The notes under the pieces are model-generated. The model did no database searches. It saw only the letters and a program-made list of their open reading frames with translations, and had not been told where the DNA came from. DNA of 64,000 nucleotides, taken from contig NZ_JAQTLH010000009.1 of assembly GCF_028714975.1 (NCBI RefSeq), forward strand, positions 1 through 64,000, read 5' to 3'. Shown piece after piece: positions 7,577 through 24,500 of this stretch. Origin of the DNA: Sulfurimonas sp. Lineage in GTDB: Bacteria; Campylobacterota; Campylobacteria; Campylobacterales; Sulfurimonadaceae. Every line of letters starts with the position of its first letter. The stretch's first letter is position 1. A program made the position numbers and the translations under genes.

Positions 7577-7582
7577 TATAAT
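7577..7582 (+). promoter_or_regulatory. -10 promoter element of pyrF
   Basis: TGCTATAAT places a TATAAT with an extended TG motif 27 bases before the pyrF ATG. Confidence 0.5.
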
Positions 7583-7609
7583 TCAATTACTAAAATATAA
7601 AGAGTTAAA

Positions 7610-8293
7610 ATGCAGCTTTGTGTAGCCCTTGATTTACCTACAAAACAAGAAAATTTAGATTTAATCAACAAAATAAAAGAGTATCCTATCTGGCTAAAAG
7701 TCGGTCTTCGTTCATATATCCGCGACGGAGAAGAGTTTTTAAAAGATATAAAAAAGATAAATCCCGACTTTAAGATATTTTTGGACTTAAAACTTTATGA
7801 CATACCAAACACGATGGCAGATGCCGCAGAGTCTATTATGGGACTCGGCGTTGATATGTTTAATGTTCACGCAAGTGCAGGAAAACGCGCTATGAAAGAG
7901 GTTATGGATAGACTTGGTTTATACGAAAACCGCCCTATCGTTTTAGCCGTAACCGCTCTTACATCATTTAGCGAAGATGAGTTTAGTGAGGTTTATGAGG
8001 ATTCAATCTCACAAAAAGCCGACCAATTTGCAAAAGACGCGCACGAGAGCGGACTTGATGGTGTTGTCTGCTCGGCTTATGAGAGCAAGTCTATAAAAAA
8101 CATAACCGATAAAGCTTTTATGACTCTGACTCCGGGGATTCGCCCATTTGGAGAAGATGCAGGAGATCAGCAAAGAGTAGCAGATGTTGCTTATGCAAAG
8201 AGCGCAGGCGTAGATTTTATAGTCGTCGGTCGCCCGATTTATAAATCCCAAAACCCATCAGAAGTAGTTAAGAAAATATTAGAGCAAATTTAA
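7610..8293 (+). CDS. pyrF: Orotidine 5'-phosphate decarboxylase
   Basis: 227 residues; converts OMP to UMP, the last step of de novo pyrimidine synthesis. The catalytic D-x-K-x-x-D array is visible as LDLKLYDIPNT (D59, K61, D64), and the C-terminal phosphate-binding region reads TPGIRPFGED and FIVVGRPI. Length fits the short bacterial group I enzymes. It starts at ATG after AAAGAGTT and appears monocistronic, with a tRNA gene downstream. Confidence 0.96.
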   Translation: MQLCVALDLPTKQENLDLINKIKEYPIWLKVGLRSYIRDGEEFLKDIKKINPDFKIFLDLKLYDIPNTMADAAESIMGLGVDMFNVHASAGKRAMKEVMDRLGLYENRPIVLAVTALTSFSEDEFSEVYEDSISQKADQFAKDAHESGLDGVVCSAYESKSIKNITDKAFMTLTPGIRPFGEDAGDQQRVADVAYAKSAGVDFIVVGRPIYKSQNPSEVVKKILEQI

Positions 8294-8344
8294 AAAACAT
8301 AGAGCAGAGGCACTTTCTTAAGCTGTATATTATGTAGATATGAT

Positions 8345-8350
8345 TATAAT
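8345..8350 (+). promoter_or_regulatory. -10 promoter element of tRNA-Ser
   Basis: TATAAT 14 bases upstream of the first base of the tRNA, at the right distance for a short leader. Confidence 0.5.
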
Positions 8351-8364
8351 TGCACTCTTCAAAC

Positions 8365-8454
8365 GGACGAGTGGGTGAGCGGCTGAAACCACATCCCTGC
8401 TAAGGATGCGTATGGGTAACTGTACCGAGGGTTCAAATCCCTCCTCGTCCACCA
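8365..8454 (+). tRNA. tRNA-Ser (anticodon GCT)
   Basis: The acceptor arms GGACGAG (8365-8371) and CTCGTCC (8444-8450) pair fully, and the 3' A-CCA is encoded. The anticodon stem CATCC/GGATG encloses the loop CTGCTAA, giving anticodon GCT, which reads AGC/AGT serine codons. A long variable arm follows, as expected for serine tRNAs, and the T-arm contains GTTCAAATC. The discriminator reads A rather than the more usual G. The gene is followed by an integrase relic, so its 3' end may have served as an integration site. Confidence 0.95.
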
Positions 8455-8548
8455 CCAAGCCTTATTTTACGAACTTTCAAGCACTTTTTTAAAAACTGAA
8501 AAATCCCTTACATAGACATAGACTTATCAAAATCTTTATAATTTGATT

Positions 8549-8617
8549 CTATATGACTACATAAACATCATAAACCATTTGAGTATTTGCATGTCCTAAA
8601 AATTGAGCAAGTTGCAC
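8549..8617 (-). pseudogene. Relic of a tyrosine-recombinase (phage-type integrase) C-terminus
   Basis: Reading the minus strand gives 22 residues, VQLAQFLGHANTQMVYDVYV followed by VI and a stop. This matches the end of tyrosine recombinases: the LGH box with its catalytic His, then T-x-M-V-Y-x-x-Y with the nucleophilic Tyr region. In-frame stops lie directly upstream, so only the tail survives. It lies about 95 bases beyond the 3' end of tRNA-Ser, the classic position of an integrase in a tRNA-targeting element, and next to a toxin/antitoxin pair. Family recognition is by eye on a short stretch, so moderate certainty. Confidence 0.65.
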
Positions 8618-8653
8618 TTATTTTTAGAATTGGCGGAGCATATTTATAAAAAA

Positions 8654-8938
8654 TTATTTATACGCACCTTCACGAGTGGTTATATGCACGACTAAGATAA
8701 TAAGTTTATCTTCATACTTTTTGTATATAACTCTATATGAGCGAAGTTTTAAACGGTAAAGCAGCTCTTTTTGCCCTTGAAGCTTTTTAATTTTGCCTGA
8801 GTGCATAAGAGATTTTTCATAGTCGCTAGAGAAATTTCGTATAAAATCTTCCAAAGAATCAAGAATAAAAACCTGATTTTGTCTATCTATACTTTTTAAA
8901 TCTTTTTTTGCAGATTGATTTAATTTAAGAATATACAA
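8654..8938 (-). CDS. RelE/ParE-family toxin
   Basis: 94 residues beginning MYILKLNQSAKKDLKSID, with the helical hairpin and the C-terminal beta strands of the RelE superfamily, including LYRLKLRSYRVIYKKYEDKL and a final histidine-containing strand VVHITTREGAY. Such toxins cleave mRNA at the ribosome (RelE) or act on gyrase (ParE); the sequence alone does not separate them. The basic residues K, R and the near-terminal R-E fit an RNase-type RelE. It starts one base after the stop of the upstream antitoxin gene, a typical coupled module. Confidence 0.82.
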   Translation of the reverse strand: MYILKLNQSAKKDLKSIDRQNQVFILDSLEDFIRNFSSDYEKSLMHSGKIKKLQGQKELLYRLKLRSYRVIYKKYEDKLIILVVHITTREGAYK

Positions 8939-8939
8939 A

Positions 8940-9155
8940 TCAGAGTCCTAGTTCTTTTCTAACTTCATCAAGCGTAAAAGTAGGTTCATTATCATTAAGT
9001 CTTTTCTCTGCCACTCTGATATCAAGATAATCAAAGTACATCTCAAGTGCAGAGACGATGATATGGCTTTTTTTCTCGTTTAATTCTTCAGCAAAATGGT
9101 TTATTTCATCATTTAGAGAAGCAGGTAATGTTATGTTTAATCTAACAGTATTCAT
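8940..9155 (-). CDS. Ribbon-helix-helix antitoxin of the RelE-type toxin
   Basis: 71 residues. The N-terminus NTVRLNITLPASLNDEINHF is a ribbon-helix-helix (CopG/Arc-like) DNA-binding strand and helix, with a second helix ending in a conserved-looking ALEMYFDYL. The acidic tail (EPTFTLDEVRKELGL) would bind the toxin. It precedes the toxin with one base between stop and start. A promoter with TATAAT on the minus strand lies 30 bases upstream inside a palindromic stretch, which suggests the usual autorepression by the antitoxin-toxin complex. Confidence 0.82.
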   Translation of the reverse strand: MNTVRLNITLPASLNDEINHFAEELNEKKSHIIVSALEMYFDYLDIRVAEKRLNDNEPTFTLDEVRKELGL

Positions 9156-9181
9156 AGTTTTATCACTCCCATATTAAGTGC

Positions 9182-9194
9182 ATAATTATACACC
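9182..9194 (-). promoter_or_regulatory. Promoter/operator of the RelE-type module
   Basis: On the minus strand GTGTATAATTATG contains TATAAT (9190 to 9185) within a near-palindrome (GTGCATAATTATACAC reading plus), a likely site for the ribbon-helix-helix antitoxin. Confidence 0.45.
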
Positions 9195-9272
9195 TTTAAA
9201 GATAAAAATCAAAAGAACACCCAATTACAATGTGGTTCGCGAAGATTTTATGATTTTTTAGATTGAAGCATG

Positions 9273-9297
9273 CATTCCCATCAAGCTGATGGGAATG
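9273..9297 (-). terminator. Strong stem-loop after the short prepilin gene
   Basis: CATTCCCATCA (9273-9283) and TGATGGGAATG (9287-9297) form a perfect 11-bp stem with a 3-base loop, 18 bases after the prepilin stop. No T-run follows on the minus strand, so it may be a transcript-end stabiliser rather than a classical terminator. Confidence 0.6.
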
Positions 9298-9315
9298 AGA
9301 AAAAAGGTAAAAATT

Positions 9316-9870
9316 TTAGAAAGCGAACCAACTTACATCTATACTTGCAGGAACAGCAGGATATGTAACACTACCTTGTACATCACCGGTATTCCAAACA
9401 TCATCGTCATATTTAAAATCCATAGTTTGAGCAACATTTGACGGTATATTGTTTATAAGAATATAGTTCCCATTTCTATCTCCTACCGTACCGTTTCTAA
9501 ATGCATATATACCGCCATACGGGCTTCTTTTTGAAACAGTAGCCTCAGTGGTTAAGGCCGGATTACCCGCTACAAACCCTGCAGTAATCAAATCTCTCCA
9601 CGCACAAATCTGCTCAGCCGCAGTCTCAATCAGACCATTCCCGTTTCCTGCCGCACAACCTGCCGTAACCGGACTCGGATTATCTCCAGGAAGTGCACCA
9701 AATCTATCCTGATAAGCATAAACTGCCGCAACTATACCGTCTACATCCGCTTTTACGCGCTTTTGTTTTGTACTATCTATCATAGCTTTGCCCTTAAGCA
9801 CACCGCCAATCAACAAACCTATGATTACCAATACAATTGATAACTCTACAAGTGTAAAACCTTTTCTCAT
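9316..9870 (-). CDS. Prepilin / pseudopilin with type III-like N-methylation signal
   Basis: 184 residues. MRKGFTLVELSIVLVIIGLL is a prepilin peptidase site (cleavage after G4, methylated Phe, Glu at +5) followed by the hydrophobic spine helix. The globular part is short and contains two Cys near GCAAGN and QICAW, probably a disulfide. Similar size to major pseudopilins and type IV pilins. It is separated from the secretion operon by 148 bases but shares orientation, so it is the likely abundant pilin for that machine. A candidate ribosome site AAGGAATTC precedes the ATG. Confidence 0.88.
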   Translation of the reverse strand: MRKGFTLVELSIVLVIIGLLIGGVLKGKAMIDSTKQKRVKADVDGIVAAVYAYQDRFGALPGDNPSPVTAGCAAGNGNGLIETAAEQICAWRDLITAGFVAGNPALTTEATVSKRSPYGGIYAFRNGTVGDRNGNYILINNIPSNVAQTMDFKYDDDVWNTGDVQGSVTYPAVPASIDVSWFAF

Positions 9871-9974
9871 CTTAAGAATTCCTTCTATTTTTATTTACAT
9901 TTAGTATATCGGAAATATACGAAAAAAAACAAGGTGTAAATTTTTTTTACATTTATGGATATTTCTAAAATAGA

Positions 9975-10002
9975 CTGCCGCGACTTCTTCGAAGTCTCGC
10001 AG
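9975..10002 (-). terminator. Stem-loop at the end of the secretion operon
   Basis: CTGC (9975-9978) with GCAG (9999-10002) and GACTTC (9982-9987) with GAAGTC (9991-9996) form a two-part stem closed by TTC. It starts 17 bases after the histidine kinase stop. The outer sequence AGACTGCCGCG resembles the hairpins at 38451 and 53956. Confidence 0.5.
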
Positions 10003-10018
10003 TGACGGGCAAAGTACT

Positions 10019-11095
10019 TTATCTATTGGTAGGAATAGTTATAACTATTTGCGGATGTTCGCTAACATTTTTACAAACAATCGTACCGTTTAGCAGTTTT
10101 ACCGCACCTGCTGCTTGGTACATCCCTATGCCTATTCCGCCTTGTTTTGTAGTGTAAAACGGTTCGCAAACCTCTAACGGATTTTTAAACTCATAACCGT
10201 TATCGCTAAGTGTTATACATATCTTATCTTTTTGTTCTTCAATTATGACTTGACACGCTATATCGCTCTGCAGTAGTTTTTTATCGTAAATATTTCCAAG
10301 GATATTGTCCGCTATAGCCGTGATATGTTCTTTGTTTGTGTATATAACAGCATCGCCTTCAATGCTGCACTCAAGTAGATAAAAATTTGCATACTCCCTA
10401 AACACGGCGGCTAAAGAGACTTCTTCATAACTATCTTCTTTATTTTGGCTTGAGCCTATCTTTAATAGTGTTAGTATGTTACTCACTTTTTTATTTACCG
10501 GTTCCGTGTTGTTTTGCAGATAGTGTATAAAACGGGATTTCTCTTCATCCGTATGCAAAGTCGCTACATTGTACTGCATGGCCTGAAAAAATTGTAAAAT
10601 ATTTTTAAGGTCATGCATCATATATGTTTGAAGTTGCAGCAGTTTTGCAAAACTTTCATTGTTCGTATATATTTTTGAATGAATCTGGTTTATAACTTGA
10701 AGAGTTATAATGTGCAAAATAAGAGTGTTTAAAATCTTTCTTTCGCCTTTGTTGTTTTTTACATATATACCTAGATTGCCGCTTACCAAGTTATCTTGAA
10801 GTGTTGTTTCTACTAAAGAAACTTCTTTTAAAATGGTGTTTTCATACGATACGGTGCTGTTGGAGTATGAGAGTTTGTATGAAATATCTTCTATTCCTAT
10901 GGGGCGGAGTTGCAGGGCAATCGAGTCTATATACTCTTTAGCATCCAAACTATTGTTTGTTTTAATCTTTGAGAGTATGGATAAAATCTTTAAAATATGT
11001 TTTAACTCAAAACTAAAGTAAAACACGACCCCTAAAATGGTTAGTCCCATGATGGTTAAAATCGGATAAATAACCTCAAGCATCTGCTCTCTCAA
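10019..11095 (-). CDS. Sensor histidine kinase with HDLKN box (pilus/secretion operon)
   Basis: 358 residues with one N-terminal membrane helix (about 9-30) and little extracytoplasmic sequence. The phospho-acceptor box reads YMMHDLKNILQF (about 157-168), the HDLKN variant seen in PrsK-type kinases rather than the common HE-[LIV]-RTPL. The HATPase domain shows a degenerate N box and DNGYEF, PFYTTK and GIGIGMY. It overlaps its response regulator gene by 20 bases. Being the last gene of the operon, it probably controls pilus or secretion gene expression or activity; the signal is unknown. Confidence 0.82.
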   Translation of the reverse strand: MREQMLEVIYPILTIMGLTILGVVFYFSFELKHILKILSILSKIKTNNSLDAKEYIDSIALQLRPIGIEDISYKLSYSNSTVSYENTILKEVSLVETTLQDNLVSGNLGIYVKNNKGERKILNTLILHIITLQVINQIHSKIYTNNESFAKLLQLQTYMMHDLKNILQFFQAMQYNVATLHTDEEKSRFIHYLQNNTEPVNKKVSNILTLLKIGSSQNKEDSYEEVSLAAVFREYANFYLLECSIEGDAVIYTNKEHITAIADNILGNIYDKKLLQSDIACQVIIEEQKDKICITLSDNGYEFKNPLEVCEPFYTTKQGGIGIGMYQAAGAVKLLNGTIVCKNVSEHPQIVITIPTNR

Positions 11096-11669
11096 TCCCG
11101 AATTTTTTTAAGAAATAGTAGCAATTCTCTCTACTTATGCCTAAAATCTTGGCGCTTTGGTAGATATTGAAATCAGTTTTTTTTAAAACTGCCAAAAGCA
11201 ACTGTTTTTGCGCTTCATCCGAAATGTTTTTTAAACCGTCCGCAAAATTGGCTTTAAATGAGAGTTTAACACCGCTCTCATCCCTATTTGCTTCATTATC
11301 TATAAAAAAAGAAGCTCTTTTTAGTGAAGCTGAGAGAGTCGGAATATTTACGGGTTTTAGGAGATAATCAAAAACTCCCAAATCAATAAGCTCTTTTGCA
11401 TACTCTCTGCTCTCCTGCCCTGTTAAAACTATTATTTTAGTATGATGCAAGAGAAGAAATTTTGAGATTATCAACCTACCCTCATGATAACTGTTTTCAT
11501 AAGGGGGCAATCCAAGATCTACAAGAGCGATGTCGAATCTTACCTTATCCATGATATCAAACGCTTCTTTAGCGTTTGACGCTTCATGTATCACATACTC
11601 TTTTTCAAATGTAAAACAGAATTGTTTTCTTAAAGCAATATCGTCATCAACTAAAAGCAATTTCTTCAC
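11076..11669 (-). CDS. Response regulator with Fis-type HTH, no AAA+ domain
   Basis: 197 residues. Receiver domain (1-120) has the acidic pair in LLVDDD, the phospho-acceptor in IALVDLGLP, Thr in IIVLTGQ and Lys in YLLKPV. The C-terminal 45 residues form a Fis-type helix-turn-helix (FNIYQSAKILGISRENCYYF). The AAA+ sigma-54 interaction domain of NtrC proteins is absent, as in ActR/RegA-type regulators. Located between the inner-membrane platform gene and the kinase with overlap, so it is the kinase's cognate partner. Confidence 0.87.
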   Translation of the reverse strand: MKKLLLVDDDIALRKQFCFTFEKEYVIHEASNAKEAFDIMDKVRFDIALVDLGLPPYENSYHEGRLIISKFLLLHHTKIIVLTGQESREYAKELIDLGVFDYLLKPVNIPTLSASLKRASFFIDNEANRDESGVKLSFKANFADGLKNISDEAQKQLLLAVLKKTDFNIYQSAKILGISRENCYYFLKKFGIERADA

Positions 11670-11670: not shown

Positions 11671-12879
11671 CTACTTTATCCCGCTTACAAGATCATACAT
11701 AGGTCCCATTAATCCTACCATAACAAGAGCCATAAAACTTCCTACCACTATAAGAACAACCGGCTCGATAATTTTTCCGATATTTTCCGCATAGTTGTCT
11801 ACTCTTTCATAATAATATTCCGAGATTATGTTAAGTTGATTTTCAAGGGTTCCCGAAGACTCTCCTACGCCCAACATTCTTATCATAAAAGTTGTAAACA
11901 TTTTCGTTTTTAAAAATGCCGCGGAGAGCTGAGAACCTCTTGATATATCGTGTGTGGCACTGCTTATTGCTTTTTTAAAAAGCTCGTTACCGATATTTTT
12001 ACCAAGTGTATCCAGTGCGCCGTATATAGGGATGCCCGATACTACCGCCAGTTTCAGGTACTCGGATATAAACGCAATGTTAAAACTAGATATCACCTCT
12101 TTTATAACCGGAATTTTTAAAAGCAGCTTATCCGTATACCAACGAACCCGCTCATATTTTTTATGGGCTATCTTAAAGAGTATAAAAAATATAATAATGC
12201 CTAAAAACATATATCCTATATAATTCGCCAAAAAATCAGATAAGCCCATCATAAAAAGCGTCATAGCCGGAAGCTCTACATCCATCTCTTTAAACAAGCT
12301 TGTCATTTGAGGAAGCACATATATCATCCACACCAGCATCGCTCCAACAACGGCAAATAGCGCGAAAGATGGATATATTAGTGCCGACTTTGCCTTTTTC
12401 TTTAGAGCAACCGTGCGGCGTAAAAAAGAGGCTCCTCTTTTTAGTGTTAGCTCAAGCTGTCCCGTATCTTCACCGATTTGGACAAGATTTATAATCATAG
12501 TTCCCATAACATCTTTATAAGGCTCAAATGCCATTGATAGGGATTTTCCGTTGTTTATGTCACTGGCGATACCATAAAGCATATCTTTAAATCTTTTGTT
12601 ATCCGTATCGTCGGCTAAATCCATAATACCTTGATAAAGCGGAAGACCCGATTTTATAACCAAATGCAAATTATCTATCATCTCTATAATCTCATCCGGA
12701 GATACTTTTTTACCGGCTTTTGGAACCAACGGTGATAAAAATTGAGGAATCGGAGTTATTTTTAGTGTTATTACTTTATCTTTTTGCAGTTTTTTTACTA
12801 AATCCTCATAACTTTTGGACTCAATAAAATTTACATTTTTTCTGCCGTCTAAAGATATAGTCGTAACCATAAAGTACAT
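11671..12879 (-). CDS. GspF/PilC-type inner-membrane platform protein
   Basis: 402 residues with two T2SSF repeats, each ending in membrane helices (about 165-190, 212-235 and 370-395). The motifs KSGLPLYQGIMDLAD and GESSGTLENQLN belong to the GspF/PilC family, which forms the cytoplasmic-membrane base onto which the assembly ATPase docks. The N-terminal 50 residues match the short extra domain found in this family. It shares one base with the ATPase gene upstream (stop/start overlap at 12879), as usual for an E-F pair. Confidence 0.92.
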   Translation of the reverse strand: MYFMVTTISLDGRKNVNFIESKSYEDLVKKLQKDKVITLKITPIPQFLSPLVPKAGKKVSPDEIIEMIDNLHLVIKSGLPLYQGIMDLADDTDNKRFKDMLYGIASDINNGKSLSMAFEPYKDVMGTMIINLVQIGEDTGQLELTLKRGASFLRRTVALKKKAKSALIYPSFALFAVVGAMLVWMIYVLPQMTSLFKEMDVELPAMTLFMMGLSDFLANYIGYMFLGIIIFFILFKIAHKKYERVRWYTDKLLLKIPVIKEVISSFNIAFISEYLKLAVVSGIPIYGALDTLGKNIGNELFKKAISSATHDISRGSQLSAAFLKTKMFTTFMIRMLGVGESSGTLENQLNIISEYYYERVDNYAENIGKIIEPVVLIVVGSFMALVMVGLMGPMYDLVSGIK

Positions 12880-14537
12880 CAGTTAACAACCCTATGTATC
12901 TCTTCTATGGTAGTAATACCCAAAATCGCTTTGATATAACCGTCATCTTTCATGGTATGCATACCTTTTTCTTGCGCGACTCTAAGCATCTCTTGCGTAG
13001 TTGAACCTGCAGTTATCATCATCTCTATATCTTTATCGATTTCAAGTATCTCGACTATTGCCTGTCTGCCGCTATATCCCGTTCCTCTGCAATGCTCGCA
13101 ACCAACAGCATCATAAAATGAATGGGTTGCATAAAAATCCAAAATCTCCGCCGAAATGCCAGACGCTATAAGTTCTTCACGGCTCTTTTCTACCGGCACT
13201 TTACAGTTTTGACACAACTTTCTTATAAGTCTTTGGGCAATAACCGCTAAAAGTCCCGAACCTATAAGATATGGCGGAATTTTTAAGTCATTTAGCCTCG
13301 GAATGGTTCCTATGGCATCGTTTGTATGTAGCGTTGATAAAACCAAGTGCCCCGTGATAGAGGCACGAACTGCAAGCTCTGCAGTTTCGGTATCTCTTAT
13401 CTCACCTACGAGCATAACATCGGGATCTTGACGCATAAACGCACGGATGGCACTGCTGAAGTTATAGCCCGCTTTTTCGTTTAGCTGTGTCTGTTTGATA
13501 AAAGAAAATTTATACTCAATCGGGTCTTCAATGGTTAAAACATTTTTTTTGAGCGAGTTTACCCTGCGAAGAGCGGAATAGAGCGTAGTTGTCTTTCCGC
13601 TTCCTGTCGGTCCTACGATAAGGATAATACCGTAAGGTTTTGAGAAATACTTCTCTATCTTTGCGCTGTTTTTCTCGGTCAATCCTAAATGAGCCAAACT
13701 AAAAAGAGATGCATTTTTACCCAAAAGCCTCATTACAATATTTTCACCGTAGTTTGTCGGCAGCGACGACACCCTCAAATCAAAAGTCTCATTTAAAAAC
13801 CCGTAGCTAAAAGAGCCGTCTTGAGGCTTTCTCTGTTCGGAGATATCTAAGTTGCTTAATATCTTTATGCGGGCTACCATCTGAGGATGTACTTTTATCG
13901 GAAGTGCGTAGTAGTGCTGCAAAACCCCATCAATGCGGTAAAAAATATGCGTAGCCGAACTCTCGGGGGAGATATGGATATCTGTTACACGATCTTTTAT
14001 AGCGCTGTTTAAGATAAGGTCAACAAGTCTTGGAACATTTATCTCTGCATTTTCTAGCGCTTTTTTTACAATCTCGGCTATCTCAGCTTCTATAGGGTTG
14101 CTTAAGTGATAGTAAAATATCTCCGTATGTCTGGCAATGGACTTCTTATCGCCAACAACATACTTTATATCTCTTCTTGACATTTTTCTAAGGTAATCAA
14201 GCGTTGCTATGTCATTAATATCTTGCGTAGCAACAACCAAAGTAGTATCATCTACGCTTATGGGGAGTATGTTTCTTGCCTTTGCCACATTTTGCGGAAT
14301 CAACAAAAGTGCTTCTGATGATGGCACGATTTGTTCTATGTTTATATACTCTAACTTACTCTGCTTTGCTATTGCCTCTGCAACCTCGGCAGATGTAACG
14401 AAGTCCAACTCTTGAAGAATCTCTCCAAAAAACTTAGGGCTTGCCTTTTGCGCAATAAGGGCAACTTTAATCTGCTCTTTATTTATATAACCTAACTCTT
14501 CGAGAAGCTGACCAATCGGTTTATTTTCTTGTGACAT
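12879..14537 (-). CDS. GspE/PilB-type pilus assembly or secretion ATPase
   Basis: 552 residues. N-terminal N1E/MshEN-like domain (about 1-140), then the ATPase core with Walker A GPTGSGKTTTLYSAL (about 306-320), Asp box IEDPIEY, Walker B LVGEIRDTET and the His box HTNDAIGTIPRL. A four-Cys zinc site is present (CQNC and CEHC), diagnostic of extension ATPases (GspE/PilB) as opposed to retraction PilT. It powers assembly of pseudopili from the pilins encoded on either side. No pilT-like gene is in the window. Confidence 0.94.
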   Translation of the reverse strand: MSQENKPIGQLLEELGYINKEQIKVALIAQKASPKFFGEILQELDFVTSAEVAEAIAKQSKLEYINIEQIVPSSEALLLIPQNVAKARNILPISVDDTTLVVATQDINDIATLDYLRKMSRRDIKYVVGDKKSIARHTEIFYYHLSNPIEAEIAEIVKKALENAEINVPRLVDLILNSAIKDRVTDIHISPESSATHIFYRIDGVLQHYYALPIKVHPQMVARIKILSNLDISEQRKPQDGSFSYGFLNETFDLRVSSLPTNYGENIVMRLLGKNASLFSLAHLGLTEKNSAKIEKYFSKPYGIILIVGPTGSGKTTTLYSALRRVNSLKKNVLTIEDPIEYKFSFIKQTQLNEKAGYNFSSAIRAFMRQDPDVMLVGEIRDTETAELAVRASITGHLVLSTLHTNDAIGTIPRLNDLKIPPYLIGSGLLAVIAQRLIRKLCQNCKVPVEKSREELIASGISAEILDFYATHSFYDAVGCEHCRGTGYSGRQAIVEILEIDKDIEMMITAGSTTQEMLRVAQEKGMHTMKDDGYIKAILGITTIEEIHRVVN

Positions 14538-14577: not shown

Positions 14578-16443
14578 CTACCTGTCGGCACCGGAAAAAT
14601 TGACCAAGCCATCTGCATCAGTATCTGCACATACGACTTGATTGAAAGTTATTCTTGCTACTTCGCCACTGCATGTTGTGTTGGAACTGGAATACTGAAT
14701 GATACTCTCTCCTGCATTAAGGCGGCGTAAAGGTGCTGTTGTTGTGATTTCACTGTTATTGTTGACTCTTCTACAAACTCCATCTACCATGAAATCCCAT
14801 CTTGCACCTGTATCGTTGTAGATACGATATTCGGTTTTAGTTGCAACACAGACACCGGTGCTGCAAGCACCGCTACCATAAGCATTAGTAACGCTTAACG
14901 CAAAGAGTGTATTTCTTGTCAGATTTGCAGTCGTGCAACTTCCACCTGTAGAGTTTGAAAAGTTCGAACAACCCCCGCTTACCGGAGAAAAAGTTCCGCT
15001 GGCAGGACCACCGACTATCGTGTAATTGAGAGTTGCCGGATTACTCATATTTACTACCGATACAGAACTTGCAAGTGTGCACGAAGGTGCCACACCGCCG
15101 CCACCGCCGCCACCGCCACTGCCACCGCCTGAACCGCTGCCGCTCGGCGTAATTGCACATTTAGAGGTATTGCTATCACAATAACCGCTTAAACAATTCG
15201 TATTTGCCCCACCACAAGCTTGCCCTATAGCACCGCTGCAAACCCCATTGTAGCAGATGCCGCTTTTGCAGTCGCCGTTATCATTATCACAAGCCACACC
15301 AAATGCACCTGTCGTACAAACTCCGCCGGCACAAAAACCGCTTATACAATCATTCCCTCTATTGCAACTATTGGTAACTGCTCCTGCTTGACATACCCCG
15401 CCTATGCATAGTCCGCTCTTACAATCACCGCCGGTAACACAAGGGTCCGATGCCACCCCTGAGCGGCATATACCACTTACGCATATGCCGCTTTGACAAT
15501 CTCCACCATTACCGCAAGGCTCACTTGCCGTACCTGAGCGACAGATACCTGCATAACATATCCCGCTTGTACATTCGCTATCTTGTGTACAATTTAAGTC
15601 TTTAGCTTTATTTAGATACGGATCTATAGTTATAACAAAAGATTTTGTTATAGTTCTGCTGCTCGGCGCAGTTTCCGTTGCACTGCAGTTAAATGTAGCC
15701 GTTCCCGCCTCGCTCGGTGTTCCGCTAAAGTTTGGAGATACAAAATTTATACCTTTTGGAGAAACAGAATTACAACTTATAGTAACTATCGAAATATTAT
15801 TTTCAACTACAAGCTTAGCTTCTGCACTTGCATTTAAATCAGGATATAAAACTCCTACTTTTGCATTTGGAAGTTTATCTGTTATAAATCTAAACGGTTT
15901 ATCTACGCATCCGACTTCATTTTTTAGCTGTTCAAGCGTGACCCACTCGACTATATCATCATAATCCTCTGCTCTGTTTATAGGAGTTGCATTGTCGTCA
16001 ATTTTAGTAAAGGGTGTATAGATATTTATAGTATTTGCATTTATGCCTGTTTGCATATTGTAGTTTGCCCCCTCATGAGCCATTACAAATGCGACATTGT
16101 CTATAGTGCTTCCTTTGTTATTTACCTTTAAGGCAGTTGAATTAAATGCACAAATATCATCATACTTAAGATTGTTATCTGCTGCATAAAACATTAGATG
16201 ATTTGGGTCTTTTGAAGTAGATAAATTTGCATCAAATTCAGAGTTTAGAGGTAGATAATACGCTTTTGAAGCGTATCCTATAACCGCATTTTTAGCTGCC
16301 AAAACCTGTTCTTTTGCCTCCTGAGTTTTAGCTTTCTCTCTCATCATCTTCATAACTTTAAAAGAACCGCCAATCATTAAGCCAATGATGGTTAAGACGA
16401 TTGACAACTCTATAAGCGTAAAACCTCTTTTACCCATTTGCAC
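14578..16443 (-). CDS. Large cysteine-rich prepilin-like protein with six Cys-repeat units
   Basis: 621 residues. The N-terminus GKRGFTLIELSIVLTIIGLM is a prepilin signal (cleavage before Phe8). A globular region and an Ig-like segment (about 210-280) come next, then six tandem units of about 22-25 residues (about 285-429) of the form C-x(4-6)-C-x-S-G-x-C-x(3-5)-C, for example CGNGGDCQSGICVSGIC, giving 24 cysteines. A Gly/Ser linker (about 433-450) leads to a C-terminal domain with further Cys pairs. The layout suggests a disulfide-rich stalk carrying a tip domain, perhaps a minor pilin adhesin. The C-terminal domain is not recognised. The gene overlaps the TPR gene by 14 bases. Confidence 0.8.
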   Translation of the reverse strand: MQMGKRGFTLIELSIVLTIIGLMIGGSFKVMKMMREKAKTQEAKEQVLAAKNAVIGYASKAYYLPLNSEFDANLSTSKDPNHLMFYAADNNLKYDDICAFNSTALKVNNKGSTIDNVAFVMAHEGANYNMQTGINANTINIYTPFTKIDDNATPINRAEDYDDIVEWVTLEQLKNEVGCVDKPFRFITDKLPNAKVGVLYPDLNASAEAKLVVENNISIVTISCNSVSPKGINFVSPNFSGTPSEAGTATFNCSATETAPSSRTITKSFVITIDPYLNKAKDLNCTQDSECTSGICYAGICRSGTASEPCGNGGDCQSGICVSGICRSGVASDPCVTGGDCKSGLCIGGVCQAGAVTNSCNRGNDCISGFCAGGVCTTGAFGVACDNDNGDCKSGICYNGVCSGAIGQACGGANTNCLSGYCDSNTSKCAITPSGSGSGGGSGGGGGGGGVAPSCTLASSVSVVNMSNPATLNYTIVGGPASGTFSPVSGGCSNFSNSTGGSCTTANLTRNTLFALSVTNAYGSGACSTGVCVATKTEYRIYNDTGARWDFMVDGVCRRVNNNSEITTTAPLRRLNAGESIIQYSSSNTTCSGEVARITFNQVVCADTDADGLVNFSGADR

Positions 16444-17467
16444 CCTCCAGTTCTTTGATTCTCTCGTTTACCGTAATATACAGGGGATGAGAAGCATCAA
16501 TCTTACTTAAGATTTTTTTATAAAAAGACAGAGCCTCTCTGTTTTGCTGCATATCAAGTATGCGGGCATAAGCAAAGATATTGTAAAGATCGGACGGATT
16601 TTTTTCATACGCCATTTTGTAAAAAGAAACAGCTCTTTGCATATCATCTCTTTTTTCGAAATAATATCCGCTAAGAAGCATCAAACGACCGCTTTTATCA
16701 ACCATAATATACTCGGATAAATCGCTATAATAGTTCTCTTGGTCGCCCTGCACTGCTCCATAGGCATATGCATAGATTAGTTTGCCGTTAAACTGCTCGC
16801 TATCTATAATCTTTTTTACTTGAAGCCATGCACCCCGTTTTCCATAAAGATAACAGAGATTGTTCTTGATTTTTTGGCTTTTTTCGCCTGATGAAAGAAG
16901 CATCTCATAGTAAATCATCGCTTCGTTTTCATCGCCTTTTTCGTAAGCATTTTGAGCTTTTAAGAGAATATTTGATTTGTCGGATTTTGATATCTTTGGA
17001 TTGCTGTTTTTTTCAGTTTTTGGAGTTTGAGGAGTTTGCTTATCTTGTTCTTTTGTTTCGGTCTTTGGTGCTTGAGGAAGTTGTTTTTCTTGTTCTTTGA
17101 TTTCACCTGATACTAAATTGTTTTTCATATCCAAGTTAGTTGAAGTTATTATATAAGAGCCTTTATATCCGGCTTCATGGGCTTTTTGCAAATTTACTTT
17201 CATCTCGCTGTAAGATTCGCTTTGACCGTAACGACCGACTATATAGTTACCGATTTTATGAAGTGTAACATCATCTTTGATATTTTTAGAAATTTTACTC
17301 TGTGTTATCTTAGCCAAATCAATATTTTGTTCAGCAAACAGTTGTACTGCATAGACAACTTTTTTCTCTTCCTCTTTTTTTTCATCTTTTTTTTGTACTC
17401 CGATACCTACCGTATCCGAAGCAAAGAGAGCAAAAGTAAAACAAAATATCGTTAATAATTTTATCAT
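16430..17467 (-). CDS. Periplasmic SPOR-like / TPR protein of the secretion operon
   Basis: 345 residues with an N-terminal signal peptide (IKLLTIFCFTFALFASDTVG). A SPOR-like beta-alpha region (about 35-110, with YAVQLFAEQN and GKYIVGRYGQ-like strands) is followed by a charged Lys/Glu/Gln/Pro linker with repeated TPKTE words, then TPR-like helices (about 175-340). Such proteins (compare MshN in MSHA systems) help secretin or platform assembly; the specific role is inferred from context. It overlaps the secretin gene by 4 bases and the Cys-rich pilin gene by 14 bases. Confidence 0.75.
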   Translation of the reverse strand: MIKLLTIFCFTFALFASDTVGIGVQKKDEKKEEEKKVVYAVQLFAEQNIDLAKITQSKISKNIKDDVTLHKIGNYIVGRYGQSESYSEMKVNLQKAHEAGYKGSYIITSTNLDMKNNLVSGEIKEQEKQLPQAPKTETKEQDKQTPQTPKTEKNSNPKISKSDKSNILLKAQNAYEKGDENEAMIYYEMLLSSGEKSQKIKNNLCYLYGKRGAWLQVKKIIDSEQFNGKLIYAYAYGAVQGDQENYYSDLSEYIMVDKSGRLMLLSGYYFEKRDDMQRAVSFYKMAYEKNPSDLYNIFAYARILDMQQNREALSFYKKILSKIDASHPLYITVNERIKELEGANG

Positions 17468-18990
17468 TCTATAATCTTTAGTCTAATCAATATGACAAGC
17501 TCTCGTTTTTCGTTTTTATCTGCCGATCTGGTAAAGAGCCCTCCGAGTAATGGAATATCTCCAAACATAGGAACTTTCTCTTTCTCTTTTGAGATAGAGT
17601 TATTTATAAGTCCGCCGATGAGAACCATATCGTTATCTTTTGCATAGATAACCGTTCCCGCCTCTTTTATATTTAGTATAGGCGCCGAAGCCACGACCAC
17701 TCCGTTGTCAGTATAGTTTACAACATCTTCTATGCTCGATGTTATCGGCACGACATTTAGCATAATCTTTCCATTCTCCATAACGGTAGGCGTAACACCC
17801 ATTGTTATACCGTGTAAAACATCCCTACGGTTATATGTTGCGTAACTTGTACTTGCAGACCCGCCCGTTCCTTGAGAAATCTGCACCTCTTTTTCCCAAA
17901 AAGGCATCAGTTTTCCTGAAGATATAGCAGCCGATTGACCGCTTAAAACGCTGATACTAGGATTTGAGAGCGTATCTACATCTCCTGATTCGCTAAGCGC
18001 CGTTATAACCGAAGAGAAATTTTTTGTAGTATAGTTCATAGTCCCCGCAACGGCACCGCTTAATCCCAAAGTTTGACTAAATTGGAACTGATCACCGCTT
18101 CTTAGAACACTATTTGCCACGGAATCCCAACTAACTCCCAATGAATGAGAGTCATTTAAAACTACCTCTAAAATTTTTGCCTCTATAAGAACTTGTTTAT
18201 TTGACTGTTTTTTAATCTTTTCTATAACGCTCTCTATAGCAGTGATATTGCTTCTCTTATCATGCACATTTAAAATTCCGCTAAATCTATTTAGCGTATA
18301 TTTTCCTTCTTTGCTAACAAGAGAGGCTATATTCTTTTCCAACTGCTCATAAAAATTATTTACCGTTGCGGGATTGTCAAATTTCAGTTTAAACTCCCCT
18401 TTTATACCGCTGCCTGAACCGCCTGAGCCCCCGCCTGAGGAGCCACCCGAAGAGCTTTTTGCAGAACTAAGCATATCGCCGCCTAGTTCAGTCGAATATG
18501 AAGTTGTTGAGTGTACATATGGAATAAAAAAACTTTTTTGCTCAAACTGTTTTACATGAAGAATATTTCCTTTTAACTCATAGAAACAATCTGCGATGCT
18601 CATAACAATATCAAGAGCCTCTTTTAGAGGAGCATCGTTAACCGAGATAGTCACTTCCGTACTTGTATCTATATCTTTATCTATAACAAGATTTAAACCT
18701 GAGAGCTGTGCCATAGTGTGTACGACATTATGGAAATTTGCATCTTTAGCCGAAAATGTAATTTTTCTATCATCGAAAACCGAAACATCTTGATATGCCT
18801 GAGGCAGAACCATTGCTGGAGCTTTGCTGTTTTTAGGTAAACTTTTAAACTCTTCTATCTCTTTGCCTGCACTTTTTATATTTTTCTTTTGAGCCGAGCC
18901 AATCTCATCCGATTTTTTTGATTCGGGAGTATGGTTAGCACATCCTAAAAAAAATAGAGCTATAAAAACTACTGAAATAAATGGAGCCAT
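17464..18990 (-). CDS. Secretin, MshL/GspD/PilQ family outer-membrane channel
   Basis: 508 residues. N-terminal lipoprotein-type signal with the lipobox FLGC. An STN domain (about 77-145, LNLVIDKDIDTSTEVTISVND) precedes a Gly/Ser-rich segment (about 180-198), an N1-like domain, and the C-terminal secretin core (about 265-508) with VLIEAKILEV, LSNPSISVLSGQSA and VPMFGDIPLLGGLFT. Multimers form the gated pore through which the pilus or secreted proteins pass. Length and domain order match MshL of MSHA pili better than the longer GspD. Confidence 0.92.
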   Translation of the reverse strand: MAPFISVVFIALFFLGCANHTPESKKSDEIGSAQKKNIKSAGKEIEEFKSLPKNSKAPAMVLPQAYQDVSVFDDRKITFSAKDANFHNVVHTMAQLSGLNLVIDKDIDTSTEVTISVNDAPLKEALDIVMSIADCFYELKGNILHVKQFEQKSFFIPYVHSTTSYSTELGGDMLSSAKSSSGGSSGGGSGGSGSGIKGEFKLKFDNPATVNNFYEQLEKNIASLVSKEGKYTLNRFSGILNVHDKRSNITAIESVIEKIKKQSNKQVLIEAKILEVVLNDSHSLGVSWDSVANSVLRSGDQFQFSQTLGLSGAVAGTMNYTTKNFSSVITALSESGDVDTLSNPSISVLSGQSAAISSGKLMPFWEKEVQISQGTGGSASTSYATYNRRDVLHGITMGVTPTVMENGKIMLNVVPITSSIEDVVNYTDNGVVVASAPILNIKEAGTVIYAKDNDMVLIGGLINNSISKEKEKVPMFGDIPLLGGLFTRSADKNEKRELVILIRLKIIE

Positions 18991-19466
18991 TTTAATCCTT
19001 TTTTATTTTTTAATAAAACACTGTTATCTTTAATCTCAACCACTTTTGCATCTTCAATACTACTGCCTTCTCGCACAATAACACCGTTTATTATAGCGAC
19101 TTTATCATTAGGGTAGAGAGCTTCAAGTTTGTAGTGGTACTCTTTTTCTACAATTTTTTCACCTTGTTGTGAAGCTGCATTTACAACTTTCTCCTCGGGA
19201 TAAAAAAATTCATCCGCTATCCACCCGCTATTTTCTTCTCTTTTCTTTACTCTCTCTTGAATCTCTTTATAGAGCATATATTTTTCCTCTATTTTGAGGT
19301 ACATATCTACTTTTTGGCTTAGCTCTTTGTTTGAGTACTCTTCATAACTCGCAAATAGATAACTTGCATTTGGAACAATATCTTCATTAAAAAAGTAGAT
19401 ACCAGAAGCTACTATAAAAGGAGAGACCAGTATCGCCAACTGCTTGTTACTTAGATATAGTTGCAT
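18969..19466 (-). CDS. MshK/GspC/PilP-like assembly protein
   Basis: 165 residues with one N-terminal membrane helix (about 9-26), a helical middle part and a C-terminal beta domain: EALYPNDKVAIINGVIVREG, then AKVVEIKDNSVLLKN and a final GLKWLHLF. This small barrel-like pattern (a single NG-x-x-x-x-E-G turn followed by ...I...V.L) is that of the GspB/GspC/MshK/PilP homology region, which links the inner-membrane complex to the secretin. The next gene is the secretin, overlapping by 22 bases. Assignment is by pattern and position. Confidence 0.65.
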   Translation of the reverse strand: MQLYLSNKQLAILVSPFIVASGIYFFNEDIVPNASYLFASYEEYSNKELSQKVDMYLKIEEKYMLYKEIQERVKKREENSGWIADEFFYPEEKVVNAASQQGEKIVEKEYHYKLEALYPNDKVAIINGVIVREGSSIEDAKVVEIKDNSVLLKNKKGLKWLHLFQ

Positions 19467-19941
19467 TGCTCTCCCCGTTATATGGCTGGATTAACTGAAT
19501 TTTACCAGTTATATTTTTTTTATCCGTTTTGAACTCTAAAAATTGCAAAAATCCACCCTCATACTCTAAATTTACAAGTTCTCTTATATTTCTAACACCG
19601 TAAGTGTCTATCTTATAGGAAAAATCGATATTTTGAGAAACATCCTCTTTATAAAAATATTTATCTACAGACATATTATAGTTATGTGCATTATTGTCAT
19701 AAAATCTTACTATATTTAATGCTCCCTCATCAAACCTGCTTGGTTGAGTCTTAATCATTGGGTAAATTGAATCTTTCAGCCAAGAGTTGATTTGAGAGAT
19801 TTTTTGTAGTCTGTTTATCTCTTGCTGATGTTTTTTATTTAAAGCTTCTATCCTAACTTTTTCATTTTCAAACCATGAAATAAGCCCGACCATTAAAACG
19901 CTAAGAGTAAGATTTATAGTGATTATAATAATATTTTTCAT
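19447..19941 (-). CDS. PilO/MshJ-like inner-membrane alignment protein
   Basis: 164 residues with a single N-terminal transmembrane helix (about 4-22), a coiled-coil-prone stretch (EALNKKHQQEINRLQKISQI, about 33-52) and a C-terminal alpha/beta region containing LEYEGGFLQFLEFKTDKKN. The size, topology and the short L-E-Y-x-G-x-F-x-x-F-L motif suit the PilO/GspM/MshJ group, which pairs with PilN/GspL. It overlaps both neighbours (4 bases with the PilM/N-like gene, 20 with the next). Confidence 0.7.
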   Translation of the reverse strand: MKNIIIITINLTLSVLMVGLISWFENEKVRIEALNKKHQQEINRLQKISQINSWLKDSIYPMIKTQPSRFDEGALNIVRFYDNNAHNYNMSVDKYFYKEDVSQNIDFSYKIDTYGVRNIRELVNLEYEGGFLQFLEFKTDKKNITGKIQLIQPYNGESNATISK

Positions 19942-21338
19942 CCTCTTCTCTTTCTCGCGATAGGTGCTTTTGGCTCCTCTTTTTTATTGTTTATAATTAC
20001 CGTTGATGCAAAATTTAGTTTTTTATAGTCCGTCTGTTTTATATAGGTGTGTTTTAAAGTCATATTTATATCGTCAAACTCTTTATAAAATCTTTTTTCA
20101 AACTCGTAAAGAGACTCTAGCGTGTTAAAAGATTTTTTAAATGCTGCCTTTAATTCAATATTTCCATCAATATAGTTCCACTCAAAAGTCTCTGCTTTTT
20201 GTAATTTTATAAGCGGTTTTAATACCGTTATAAGGTCTACGGGATGATACTCGAGATGCTTTTCTACGATTTCGAGATAATTTAGGCTCTTTTGCAACTC
20301 GCCTTGAGGATATGTTTGTGTATTTTTAACAATTTTGGTCAATCTATCTTTAATTGTTTCATATTTTTCAAATGAGTCGCTATAAGATAAATATTTTTCA
20401 ACAGTAAAAAAAGAGAGAACTAAAAGAGGTACGAAAGATGCAATAAATAAAATTTTAGAAACCAGTTTGTACTGTTTTATACCATGCACGGAAATCGGTA
20501 AAAATTGAAATTTTTTAGGTACAAAAAGAGCCCCGAGTGCAATTATATATGATTGAACATCCTCATTTTCTATGCCGCGAATGAATGTATTTGGATATAA
20601 AATTGTTATGTTTATATCAGAGATGGACAGATATAGATGTTCGGCAATAGTGTCGTCTATGGCTATAGTTCCGCTAAAAGCTATGGTTGAGAATTTTATA
20701 TCCCTAAACTGCCCTTTTACATAATTAATCGTTTGATTAATCTCTGCTACCATATTGAGTATTCTTAACTCTGCATTTCTTGCAACCACCGAGTTTGTAC
20801 GGCTATATACAATCTCATTTTTATGAACCGCAATCGTAGTAATTTTATTTGAACTTGTATATATAGAGAAGTAACTCTCCTCTTTTATGCACTCTTGCGA
20901 TATGCCAAAAAGAGCAAATTTGCTTAATGTAGAACTCTCTATTTGAGATATATCATCGATTAAATTGAGTCTATCCAGATACTCTTTTTCATAAACTCCG
21001 TCTACTTGGTAGGTGCTGTTTTCACTCTTCTCTTTTTGCGCTATCTCATAATAGTTAAACATCAACTTTCGGTTAGCCGTCTGTTCTGCAAGTTTTAGCA
21101 GAATCGAACCCCTAATGACAGCATCATTTTTTATAACGGATGCAAGAGAGACCTTTTCATCTACTTCTTCATCTTGGTCTATGCTAAGAAAGAAATTTTC
21201 TCTGTTTTTTATGTGTAGCGGAAGTTCCGATAAATCTATAATATGATGTTCGGCAAGAGAATAAACATTACCTTTTTTTTCTATGTCTAAGGCAATTACA
21301 TAATTATCTTGTATATCTAAAGCACAGAGTCGGTTCAT
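19938..21338 (-). CDS. PilM/PilN- or GspL-like actin-fold plus membrane protein
   Basis: The preferred start is the ATG at 21338 (MNRLCALDIQDN), preceded by AAGAGA, giving 466 residues; an upstream ATG at 21428 would add 30 residues that look non-coding. Residues 1-290 form an ASKHA-like region (ALDIQDNYVIALDIE at the start, TIAFSGTI later). A single transmembrane helix follows (about 308-325) and then a periplasmic coiled coil and ferredoxin-like part ending in basic residues ARKRRG. This is the GspL/MshI layout, PilM and PilN in one chain. It is the first gene of the operon, divergent from mutS. Confidence 0.72.
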   Translation of the reverse strand: MNRLCALDIQDNYVIALDIEKKGNVYSLAEHHIIDLSELPLHIKNRENFFLSIDQDEEVDEKVSLASVIKNDAVIRGSILLKLAEQTANRKLMFNYYEIAQKEKSENSTYQVDGVYEKEYLDRLNLIDDISQIESSTLSKFALFGISQECIKEESYFSIYTSSNKITTIAVHKNEIVYSRTNSVVARNAELRILNMVAEINQTINYVKGQFRDIKFSTIAFSGTIAIDDTIAEHLYLSISDINITILYPNTFIRGIENEDVQSYIIALGALFVPKKFQFLPISVHGIKQYKLVSKILFIASFVPLLVLSFFTVEKYLSYSDSFEKYETIKDRLTKIVKNTQTYPQGELQKSLNYLEIVEKHLEYHPVDLITVLKPLIKLQKAETFEWNYIDGNIELKAAFKKSFNTLESLYEFEKRFYKEFDDINMTLKHTYIKQTDYKKLNFASTVIINNKKEEPKAPIARKRRG

Positions 21339-21399
21339 AAAATCTCTTATATTATTTTTTAATTTAAAAAAAAATGTGTAATACTTCCTAAAATGGGTT

Positions 21400-21405
21400 A
21401 TTGTA
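21400..21405 (-). promoter_or_regulatory. Possible -10 element of the secretion operon
   Basis: TACAAT on the minus strand lies 62 bases upstream of the preferred start at 21338 and downstream of the alternative ATG at 21428, which supports the shorter start. No clear -35 is seen. Confidence 0.35.
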
Positions 21406-21510
21406 GCTAAGTTTGATTGTAAAAGCAATTAATATAGCCGTGTTTTTTGTTAATATATATGATTTTTGCAATTTTTACATATAAAGAGTACCTCTAAATG
21501 CTCTTTATGC

Positions 21511-21548: not shown

Positions 21549-24500
21549 ATGCGCTCATCCGATATAGATTCTCTCCTAAACAACAAAGATAAACTCTTAA
21601 CTCAAACATACTTTGATTTGCAGAGATATTTTGAGAAAAAATACGGCAGAGACACTGTTGTTTTCATGGAGATAGGAACTTTTTTTGAGGTTTATGAAGT
21701 CAATAATGATGAAGAGCAGGTAGGCAAAGCAAAAGAGATAGCCGAACTCTTAAACATTCAACTCACCAAAAAAAATAAAAGTATTATAGAAAATAGCGAT
21801 AAGAATCCGCTCTTAGCAGGTGTTCCCGCGGTATCGTTTGAGAGATACTTAAGCCGTCTTATTGCAGAGCAGAAATATACCGTCATCGTAGTAAAACAAA
21901 AAGGAAACCCTCCCAAAATAAGCAGATATATCTCTCAAATAGTCTCTCCCGGAACAAATTTTGACTATGTGCTTGATAATGACGACAACTATATAGTCTC
22001 TATATTAGTGGATAAATTTAGGGGCATATATGCGGTAGGTTATAGTGCCATCGATGTAACGACTGGAAAAACTTGGCTTTATGAGAGTCACGGAACAAGT
22101 GAAGACCCTGCTTATGCGCTTGATGAAGTGTTTAATCTTTTAAATACATATAAAACATCCGAAGTAGTCGTTACATTTTTAGACGGTGTTGATGATCAGC
22201 GCCATGTTATGCAGTATCTCGAAATTCCTGAACACTATAACTACAGCATAAATAACCAAAGACCGAAAATAGAGTTTCAAAACGAACTCTTTTGCGAAGT
22301 GTATCAGATTCAGTCACTTCTCTCCGCCATTGAGCATCTGGATTTAGAGAGAAATCCGATGATAACGGAGTCGCTCTCTATACTTATCCACTTTATCATA
22401 GAACATGATATACATATCATTCAAAAACTTGACTATCCAAAAATCATAGACAATCGCCGTTTTATCTATCTTGGAAACAGTGCCTTGGAGCAGATGGGCG
22501 TAATATCAAAAGATAAAAAAGAGTTTACGCTTCTTAAAATGCTGGATAAAAGTGCAACGGCAATCGGGCGCAGGCTTTTAAAAGAGAGACTCTTAAATCC
22601 CATTATGAATAAAGTCGAGCTTGAGAGAAGATATGATTTGATAGAAAAAGTCGCCTCGCATACACGCTACCTCGATGAAGTGATGCGCGGTATTTACGAC
22701 TTAGAGAGGTTGTCTCGCAGACTTGTTTTAGGGAAACTTCACCCTTTTGAGATGAATCATATATATGACTCGATGCTTAGCGTAAAAGAGTTGATGTCTT
22801 ATGCTAAAAAACATAAGATTCAAAAGACATCTTTTCATGAGAGCGAAGTGGATGAGTTTTTAAGAGATATATCAAAAAGTATCGATTTGGACATCTCCCG
22901 CCGTTTTACAAATGCGACTATTGATGAGAATTTTTTGATGAGCGGAGTCGATGAGGCGATTGACACTTTGGCAAAAGAGAACAGAACGATTTTAATTGCG
23001 TTTGAAGATATTATGGCAAAAATCGAACTTCTTTTAGAGGGCGCAAATGCAAACAGCACAAACGCTTTGGTAACTCTCGGATTACTCGAAAAAGAGGGTT
23101 ACTACATATCTCTTAGCAAAAATAGATTTTCAATGATAGAGTCGGAATTTTATAAACATGAAGACTTTAAGAATTTTACGGTTAAAAAACTGACAAACAG
23201 CGTAAAAATAACATCCGCTTTTACGGATAATCTCTCCGATAGGATTATGAAAAACCGCCGTAAAATAGTCTCATTGGTAAGAGATAGATTTATCGCTCTT
23301 CAAGAAGTTTACGAGAGAAGATATGCACTTTTATTTGACCGTATTATTGCTTATGTGGCGGATTTGGATGTGGGTGTCAGCTCATCTAAAGTTGCGCAGT
23401 CGTACAACCACTCAAGACCTATGATAGTAGATGTAGAGAGTGATGAAAATTTTATGCACCTTATGCAGCTTCGCCATCCCCTCATCGAGATACAAAGCAG
23501 AAGCGGTATCTATGTTCCAAACGATATCGTAATGGGAAATCGTGCATATATGGATCTGCCGCACCCAAAGAGTGTTATGCTTGATGTAGGCGTGCATGAC
23601 GGATATGAGATAAACGGTGTTCTGCTTTACGGGATAAACTCAAGCGGAAAATCATCGCTTATGAAGAGTATAGGTCTAAGCGTACTTATGGCACAAGCCG
23701 GCTTTTTCGTAAGTGCATCCGTTATGAAGTTTTCTCTTTTTGATTCGCTCTTTACACGGATAGTTTCAAGAGACAACCTTGCTAAAGGGCTTTCAACTTT
23801 TGCGGTAGAGATGTTGGAGCTAAAAAACATCTTTAACCGTGCAACCGTTCGCTCACTCATACTCGGAGATGAGATAAGCCACGGGACGGAGACGCTCTCG
23901 GGTGTTGCAATAGTCTCAAGCGCCATAATAAAACTCTCCGCTCTTCGCTCAATCTTTCTTTTTGCCACGCATCTGCATCAGCTCTCAACCATGAGAGAGA
24001 TAAGAACTTTAAAAAATGTCGTAGATTTGCACCTAAGCGTTGAGTATGACGAGATAGCGGATAAGCTTATTTTTAACAGAGTTCTTCAAGCGGGAAGCGG
24101 CAGCAGCATCTATGGACTAGAGTTTGCAAAATCGCTTCACATGGATAGTGAGTTTTTGGATATAGCAAATAAAATAAGAAAAAGGCTTGCAAAAGATTTT
24201 GATGAGCTGGAACTTCTTGTAAAGAAAAAAACAAGCAAATACAACAAAGAGCTTTACATCACAAAATGCGTAATTTGCGGAGCGATGGCTGAGGATGTTC
24301 ACCATATAAACCACAAATCACAAGCCGATAGCGGCGGTTTTATAGGGCACTTTCATAAAGACTCAAAACATAATCTTATCCCGCTTTGCAGGGAACATCA
24401 CAAAGAGATACATGAGGGTAAAATCAGGGTAGACGGTTTTGTTATGACAAGTAACGGTTTAGAGTTAAAATATGAAGAGCAGTTAAGAAAAAAAGATAAG

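Follow-up and report, generated by a model that had tools for sequence, protein, structure and literature searches.

The window, that is the whole stretch of DNA analysed (64,000 nucleotides), from a sulfur-oxidizing Sulfurimonas, contains on its minus strand an operon similar to that of the MSHA pilus, with ends at 21428 and 9316. It comprises, in order, genes in MshI-, MshJ- and MshK-like positions and those for an MshL-like secretin, the TPR protein, the large pilin, MshE, MshG, both members of a two-component system and a small prepilin. The genes flanking that of the large pilin are as follows.

19938–21428, minus strand: protein in the MshI/PilM-like position, assigned by position and kept in related operons (no Pfam match at E 0.01)
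19447–19941, minus strand: small membrane protein in the MshJ/PilO-like position, assigned by position and kept in related operons
18969–19466, minus strand: small membrane protein in the GspB/PilP-like position (PF16537, 18.8 bits, under the cut-off)
17464–18990, minus strand: MshL-like secretin (PF00263; TIGR02519, 215.1 bits, under the cut-off of 250.2)
16430–17467, minus strand: TPR protein in the MshN-like position (sequence match and conserved position)
12879–14537, minus strand: MshE-type assembly ATPase with a c-di-GMP-binding N-terminal domain (PF00437, PF05157, NF053729)
11671–12879, minus strand: MshG/GspF platform protein (PF00482)
11076–11669, minus strand: response regulator with a Fis-type HTH (PF00072, PF02954)
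10019–11095, minus strand: sensor histidine kinase (PF02518)
9316–9870, minus strand: small prepilin, candidate major pilin in the MshA-like position (PF07963)

Among the listed secretin models, the MshL model TIGR02519 scored best and still fell below its cut-off, which is why the operon is called MSHA-like here. The MshE ATPase with its c-di-GMP domain was recognized by PF05157 (2.1e-15) and NF053729 (45.3 bits, cut-off 38). Adjoining the operon is a ParE-type toxin gene (8654–8938, minus strand; PF05016 above cut-off), and at 21549–24560 on the plus strand lies a gene for a MutS protein of 1003 amino acids with an HNH-like C-terminal extension, for which HNH_2 and its relatives scored just under their cut-offs. 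The window genome (G000) encodes eight prepilins above the PF07963 cut-off, the large pilin included, together with one prepilin peptidase and, elsewhere, a second set of ATPase, platform protein and secretin. On its contig C5 (positions 6245–11101, locus L048), three minor-pilin-like genes lie by a gene for a 972-amino acid Calx-beta protein, and one of these pilins lacks Glu at +5; this cluster is possibly the tip set of the MSHA-like or of the second pilus system.

A preliminary description, made from the nucleotide letters, had drawn attention to the reading frame between the assembly ATPase and TPR genes as a giant prepilin-like protein. The frame is real at exactly 14578–16443, and its strand, which had been left unstated, is minus; the TPR gene lies upstream and the MshE-type ATPase gene downstream, in agreement with the position described. 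The following features were distinguished within it.

14578–16443, minus strand: large, putatively modular prepilin (621 amino acids, GTG start, stop codon included)
16363–16434, minus strand: class III signal and N-terminal helix, residues 4–27 (PF07963)
15859–16443, minus strand: conserved pilin head, residues 1–195 (15-row alignment)
15604–15858, minus strand: Ig-like domain 1, residues 196–280 (PF05345, He_PIG, 17.5 bits, under the cut-off of 24)
15157–15591, minus strand: six four-cysteine units, residues 285–429 (pattern, shuffles and unit alignment)
15094–15150, minus strand: glycine/serine linker, residues 432–450 (read from the sequence)
14842–15093, minus strand: second Ig-like-looking domain, residues 451–534 (assigned by eye; conserved in the relative L031)
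14581–14841, minus strand: terminal β-rich domain, residues 535–621 (weakly predicted strands; conservation in the relatives L031 and L050)

The pilin signal was confirmed, with both PF07963 (26.3 bits, cut-off 21.2) and TIGR02532 (27.4 bits, cut-off 16.3) above threshold. It reads VQMGKRG/FTLIE, with Glu at +5, and cleavage is expected after Gly7; the genome-wide PF07963 scan picked out this stretch as well. Across the 15-row alignment the head has a mean column identity of 54%, and Cys98 and Cys179 are invariant; Ig-like domain 1 holds two further cysteines. PF05345, which falls short in the window prepilin, is above its cut-off in the homologues L101 and L102. The length of 621 residues stands, whereas "giant" applies only in a relative sense, large modular pilins being a described class (cited passages of PMC8179133).

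The 24 cysteines in six units of the preliminary description were upheld by a pattern search and a shuffle test. The units occupy residues 285–301, 310–326, 335–351, 360–376, 385–402 and 410–429, and account for 24 of the 36 cysteines of the prepilin. When residues 280–431 were shuffled 20,000 times, units averaged 0.02 per shuffle and never exceeded 2, versus six in the real protein; the six units are far above chance. The four-cysteine motif holds, but the spacing required correction to C-x5-6-C-x-S-G-x-C-x4-6-C, in place of x4-6 and x3-5 for the outer intervals. The label "eukaryotic-style Dickkopf" was weakened, as Dickkopf_N scored 13.8 bits against a Pfam cut-off of 25, and bacterial repeat models, likewise below threshold, offer a nearer comparison. 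DUF7107 (Pfam) scored 18.3 bits (cut-off 24.6) and TIGR04201 13.2 bits (curated cut-off 25). Searching PDB sequences with the array returned no meaningful relative (best 4r12_A, E 0.23), and at E 1e-5 among 397 genomes of the phylum the window genome alone matched. The plasmid collection yielded a single weak match, from Nonomuraea (28.8% identity, without annotation), and no paper on pilins with cysteine-rich repeats was found in the open-access literature.

The units of the window array are 29–60% identical among themselves and 65–80% identical to the matching unit in the Sulfurimonas genome G067. Because they match their G067 counterparts better than one another, the array is old, with units gained or lost whole. 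Repeat slippage at the DNA level was considered as the origin of unit number and rejected, as Tandem Repeats Finder detected the glycine linker only (a 9-bp tandem repeat at 15093–15117). This linker, a glycine-rich stretch at about residues 432–450, had been correctly placed after the array.

Also borne out was the absence of a family for the C-terminal domain, which has no Pfam or NCBIfam match above cut-off. The terminal domain is 64% identical in L031 and 78% identical in L050, and its strands are predicted with low to moderate confidence. Structure prediction, which the preliminary description had proposed, did give AlphaFold2 models, but these were too poor for any fold, with a mean pLDDT of 34 (whole prepilin, alignment of 3 sequences) and 42 (C-terminal 174 residues, alignment of 2). 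Foldseek with the model of the last 174 residues returned nothing better than E 0.6, and in view of both results no fold is drawn. PDB sequences matching the end region were ribosomal proteins only (E 0.029 or worse). A by-eye suspicion that the end domain is homologous to the C-termini of L060 and L101 was abandoned on hhalign E values of 0.018 and 0.045, with probabilities below 3%.

Relatives of the prepilin named by tblastn were Sulfurimonas MAGs (L031, 66%; L032, 52%). When the 15-row head alignment was used as a profile, the gene turned up at E 1e-12 in 21 of the 135 Sulfurimonas genomes and, in the sample of the phylum, in 10 of 397 genomes at E 1e-10. MshL was matched in 20 of the 135 genus genomes at E 1e-60, and 19 of these 20 also have the pilin. 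In the remaining one (G188, 74% complete), MshL lies 603 bases from the contig end; two further genomes, G007 and G191, have the pilin without an MshL match, and in both the operon runs past the end of the contig. In all 19 genus genomes showing both neighbours, the pilin gene is flanked by the TPR gene on one side and mshE on the other; G007 and G023, in which one neighbour is visible and which stand outside this count, agree in order. That the pilin is a fixed component of the pilus operon is supported by these comparisons.

The region beyond the head varied widely. For the tails, 20 genus orthologues with a visible C-terminus were counted, G023 being left out because it ends before that point. 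Six cysteine units are present in G000 and G067, five in G039, four in G191 (two found by pattern and two by eye), two in G040, and one each in G069, G192, G072 and G189, that of G072 being oddly spaced. Where the number is one or two, the units make up the extreme C-terminal end of the protein, and several genus orthologues end shortly past the Ig-like domain. Absence of the repeats from orthologues of the same operon, which the preliminary description had named as counting against its reading, was found in 11 of 20, units being present in the other 9. Since they are missing in these 11, the repeats are not a requirement of the machine; the pilin head is.

Outside the genus, the tails differ further. 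In L100, where the gene occupies the same slot with an extra pilin-like gene adjoining, the tail matches an L-type lectin model with E 3.9e-15, though its 56.7 bits fall short of the 78.3 required. Two He_PIG domains and ALK_LTK_GRD, all above cut-off, are present in L102, whose pilin gene adjoins the TPR gene and in which mshE and mshG are encoded on the opposite strand. L101 has He_PIG above cut-off in a gene downstream of mshG, hence in a different slot; in L099 the tail is bare glycine; and by eye no extra module was recognized in L103, L104 or L105. The mshL gene at L102 (3110–5680) is split by an insertion of ~1.1 kb, in which a frame resembles, by eye, an IS30-type transposase, and the pilus in this genome (G289) may be dead. 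The pattern across relatives reads as a carrier head with exchangeable tails. Different end pieces in one place among relatives are what would be expected of an interchangeable gripping device.

Sequence comparison establishes the signal, the conserved head, the place in the operon and the variable C-terminal region. From these we consider it likely that the protein belongs to the modular minor pilins and that an MSHA-like type IV pilus, controlled by c-di-GMP, displays it as an adhesin. The earlier proposal of display by the machine is retained in so far as the prepilin lies in the pilus operon at 19 of 19 loci showing both neighbours and adhesin display fits the variable, partly lectin-like tails; what it loses is the cysteine repeats as the constant part.

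A minor pilin for assembly or priming, which would start filament growth and bear its variable tail as a ligandless spacer, would equally account for the conservation of the head and its constancy in the operon, and would be at ease with the 11 of 20 tails that lack cysteine units and with the several short ones. Lectin-like, glycine-rich and Ig modules, together with fast divergence, fit a contact surface better, however, and we regard a priming role as unlikely. Still less can be said for a type II secretion pseudopilin whose tail interacts with a secreted substrate. In its favour are weak scores of the head against the GspG and GspH models and the presence of GspF- and GspE-like genes; but the ATPase is of the MshE type with a c-di-GMP domain, MshL is the best secretin model, a separate second set of ATPase, platform and secretin exists in the genome and the modules are variable and of surface type, making this assignment improbable.

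Divergence within the operon is uneven. Relative to the near strains G039 and G191, respectively, MshE of the window is 97 and 96% identical, the large pilin 73 and 57%, and the small prepilin 33 and 30%. In the same comparisons dN/dS is 0.24 and 0.29 for the large pilin and 0.03 and 0.04 for MshE. The small prepilin (9316–9870), with a dN/dS of about 0.6, is the fastest-changing protein of the operon. Because dN/dS never exceeds 1, these values indicate relaxed or diversifying change and are no proof of positive selection. They bear on the notion that diversifying pressure comes from phages, for which the pilin would be a receptor or a decoy, its tail varying through phage use and not through ligand differences. 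The even greater divergence of the small prepilin (33 and 30%) would then mean that the whole filament surface is changing; set against this are the recognizable binding domains in homologues and a dN/dS below 1 everywhere. We hold a phage-driven origin of the variation to be distinctly improbable, although it can be compatible with an adhesin.

Identities also differ between the pilin and its machinery. Between G067 and the window, the pilins are 66% identical although the proteins in the I, J and K positions and the TPR protein reach only 33–45%; in G072 these four are nearer, at 46–54%, and the pilin is at 36%. In a tree of six assembly proteins, a single clade was rejected both for the three array-plus-tip operons (p-AU 0.0006) and for the whole set of eight repeat-bearing operons included there (p-AU 4e-6), these p values being optimistic because the groups were chosen after the MshL tree had been seen. 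G167, which has no units, falls among the repeat-bearing operons in this tree. As the machinery trees reject one array-plus-tip clade, the pilin gene has probably moved between Sulfurimonas lineages. Repeated loss, instead of transfer, also explains the conflict; transfer is favoured because the identity of the G067 pilin is high.

With regard to the state of the cysteines, their number is even in 26 of 26 complete, distinct homologues (from 29 rows, omitting the incomplete L059 and L061 and L093, which is the same as L032). It is likewise even in all eight other prepilin-like proteins of the window genome (seven from the PF07963 genome scan and one without Glu+5). The even numbers across homologues argue for disulfides. 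Counting against disulfides, in the window genome, which is 99.4% complete, searches for DsbA (PF01323), DsbB (PF02600) and VKOR (PF07884) gave no match at E 0.001; in control searches of 14 genomes DsbB was found in 6, VKOR in 3 and DsbA in 8. No paper on a Sulfurimonas with DsbB was found in the open-access literature. This poses a biochemical question, in that a genome with no match to these thiol oxidase families nevertheless encodes a protein with 36 apparently paired cysteines.

Given the lack of recognizable DsbA, DsbB and VKOR, the 24-cysteine array might, where sulfide abounds, stay partly in thiol or persulfide form and undergo reaction with polysulfide or solid sulfur, the pilus gripping and activating S8, an idea to which we attach very little probability. 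If true, the array would provide a surface protein with thiols, such as acidophilic sulfur oxidizers are said to use (PMC10045233, introduction). An MshL gene of Sulfurovum indicum is reported in the cited part of the same paper to be upregulated on S0, a result that concerns MshL and not the window pilin and that backs the sulfur idea at most indirectly, from a different genus (PMC10045233). Solid sulfur as the target of the pilin is speculation.

For the adhesin-bearing minor pilin that we favour, the following course can be proposed. The single prepilin peptidase would cleave the protein, and the head would polymerize into the filament; its likeliest place is at the tip or close to it, because an extension of ~425 residues could not pack inside the filament. 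Disulfide-bonded cysteine units would then form a stiff stalk that spaces the Ig-like and terminal domains off the filament. The terminal domain would contact a surface or partner, a part that in relatives might fall to a single C-terminal cysteine unit or to a lectin-like domain. The course of head in the filament, stalk and contact comes from combining the model for modular pilins with a stalk proposal made for TraA. The pilin gene, with array and terminal domain, would be exchanged between Sulfurimonas lineages, and it changes more quickly than the genes for assembly. A natural series of tails is offered by this single gene in its fixed slot, from none through one cysteine unit to six units with end domains, or a lectin-like domain, which makes the idea of a carrier head with exchangeable effector tails testable in environmental chemolithotrophs. 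The large pilin is a defined candidate for Sulfurimonas attachment.

Among known systems, the Vibrio MSHA pilus has MshL, MshG and MshE with its MshEN domain, types that recur here, and its gene order is similar to that of the window operon. What sets the window operon apart is that a large, putatively modular pilin is encoded between TPR protein and MshE and that the MshL model scores below its cut-off. GspK-type tip pilins lack Glu at +5; the window prepilin, in contrast, keeps this residue, so a place in the body of the filament is possible. With the Cys-rich domains Dickkopf_N and DUF7107 (Pfam) the array shares its four-cysteine spacing, both scores being sub-threshold.

TraA of Myxococcus xanthus likewise has tandem Cys-rich units (TIGR04201, a sub-threshold match here), for which the cited part of PMC3325183 proposes a rigid stalk presenting a recognition domain at the cell surface. 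Unlike the window pilin, TraA is anchored by MYXO-CTERM, carries PA14 and has no pilin head (PMC3325183, same part). The closest parallel is with the modular pilins defined by Raynaud et al. (2021), a set of >1,200 proteins in 264 architectures, in which PF05345 is a frequent module and N_methyl with PF05345 one of the 15 commonest architectures (cited passages of PMC8179133). A tip position is there inferred from the bulk of the modules (PMC8179133, cited passages). As in PilB and PilC of Streptococcus sanguinis (PMC8179133, cited passages), a Glu5 pilin module is followed by apparently grafted non-pilin domains, and the lectin-like domain of PilC has a likeness in the tail of a homologue, L100. 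The window pilin differs from the S. sanguinis proteins in that no family scores above cut-off for its array or its terminal domain and in its place in an MSHA-like operon of Campylobacterota; adhesion is demonstrated for PilB (PMC8179133, cited passages), whereas the window pilin is known from its sequence. By its predicted architecture, the window prepilin is probably a modular pilin, a kind of protein that has already been described, with a putative cysteine-repeat stalk.
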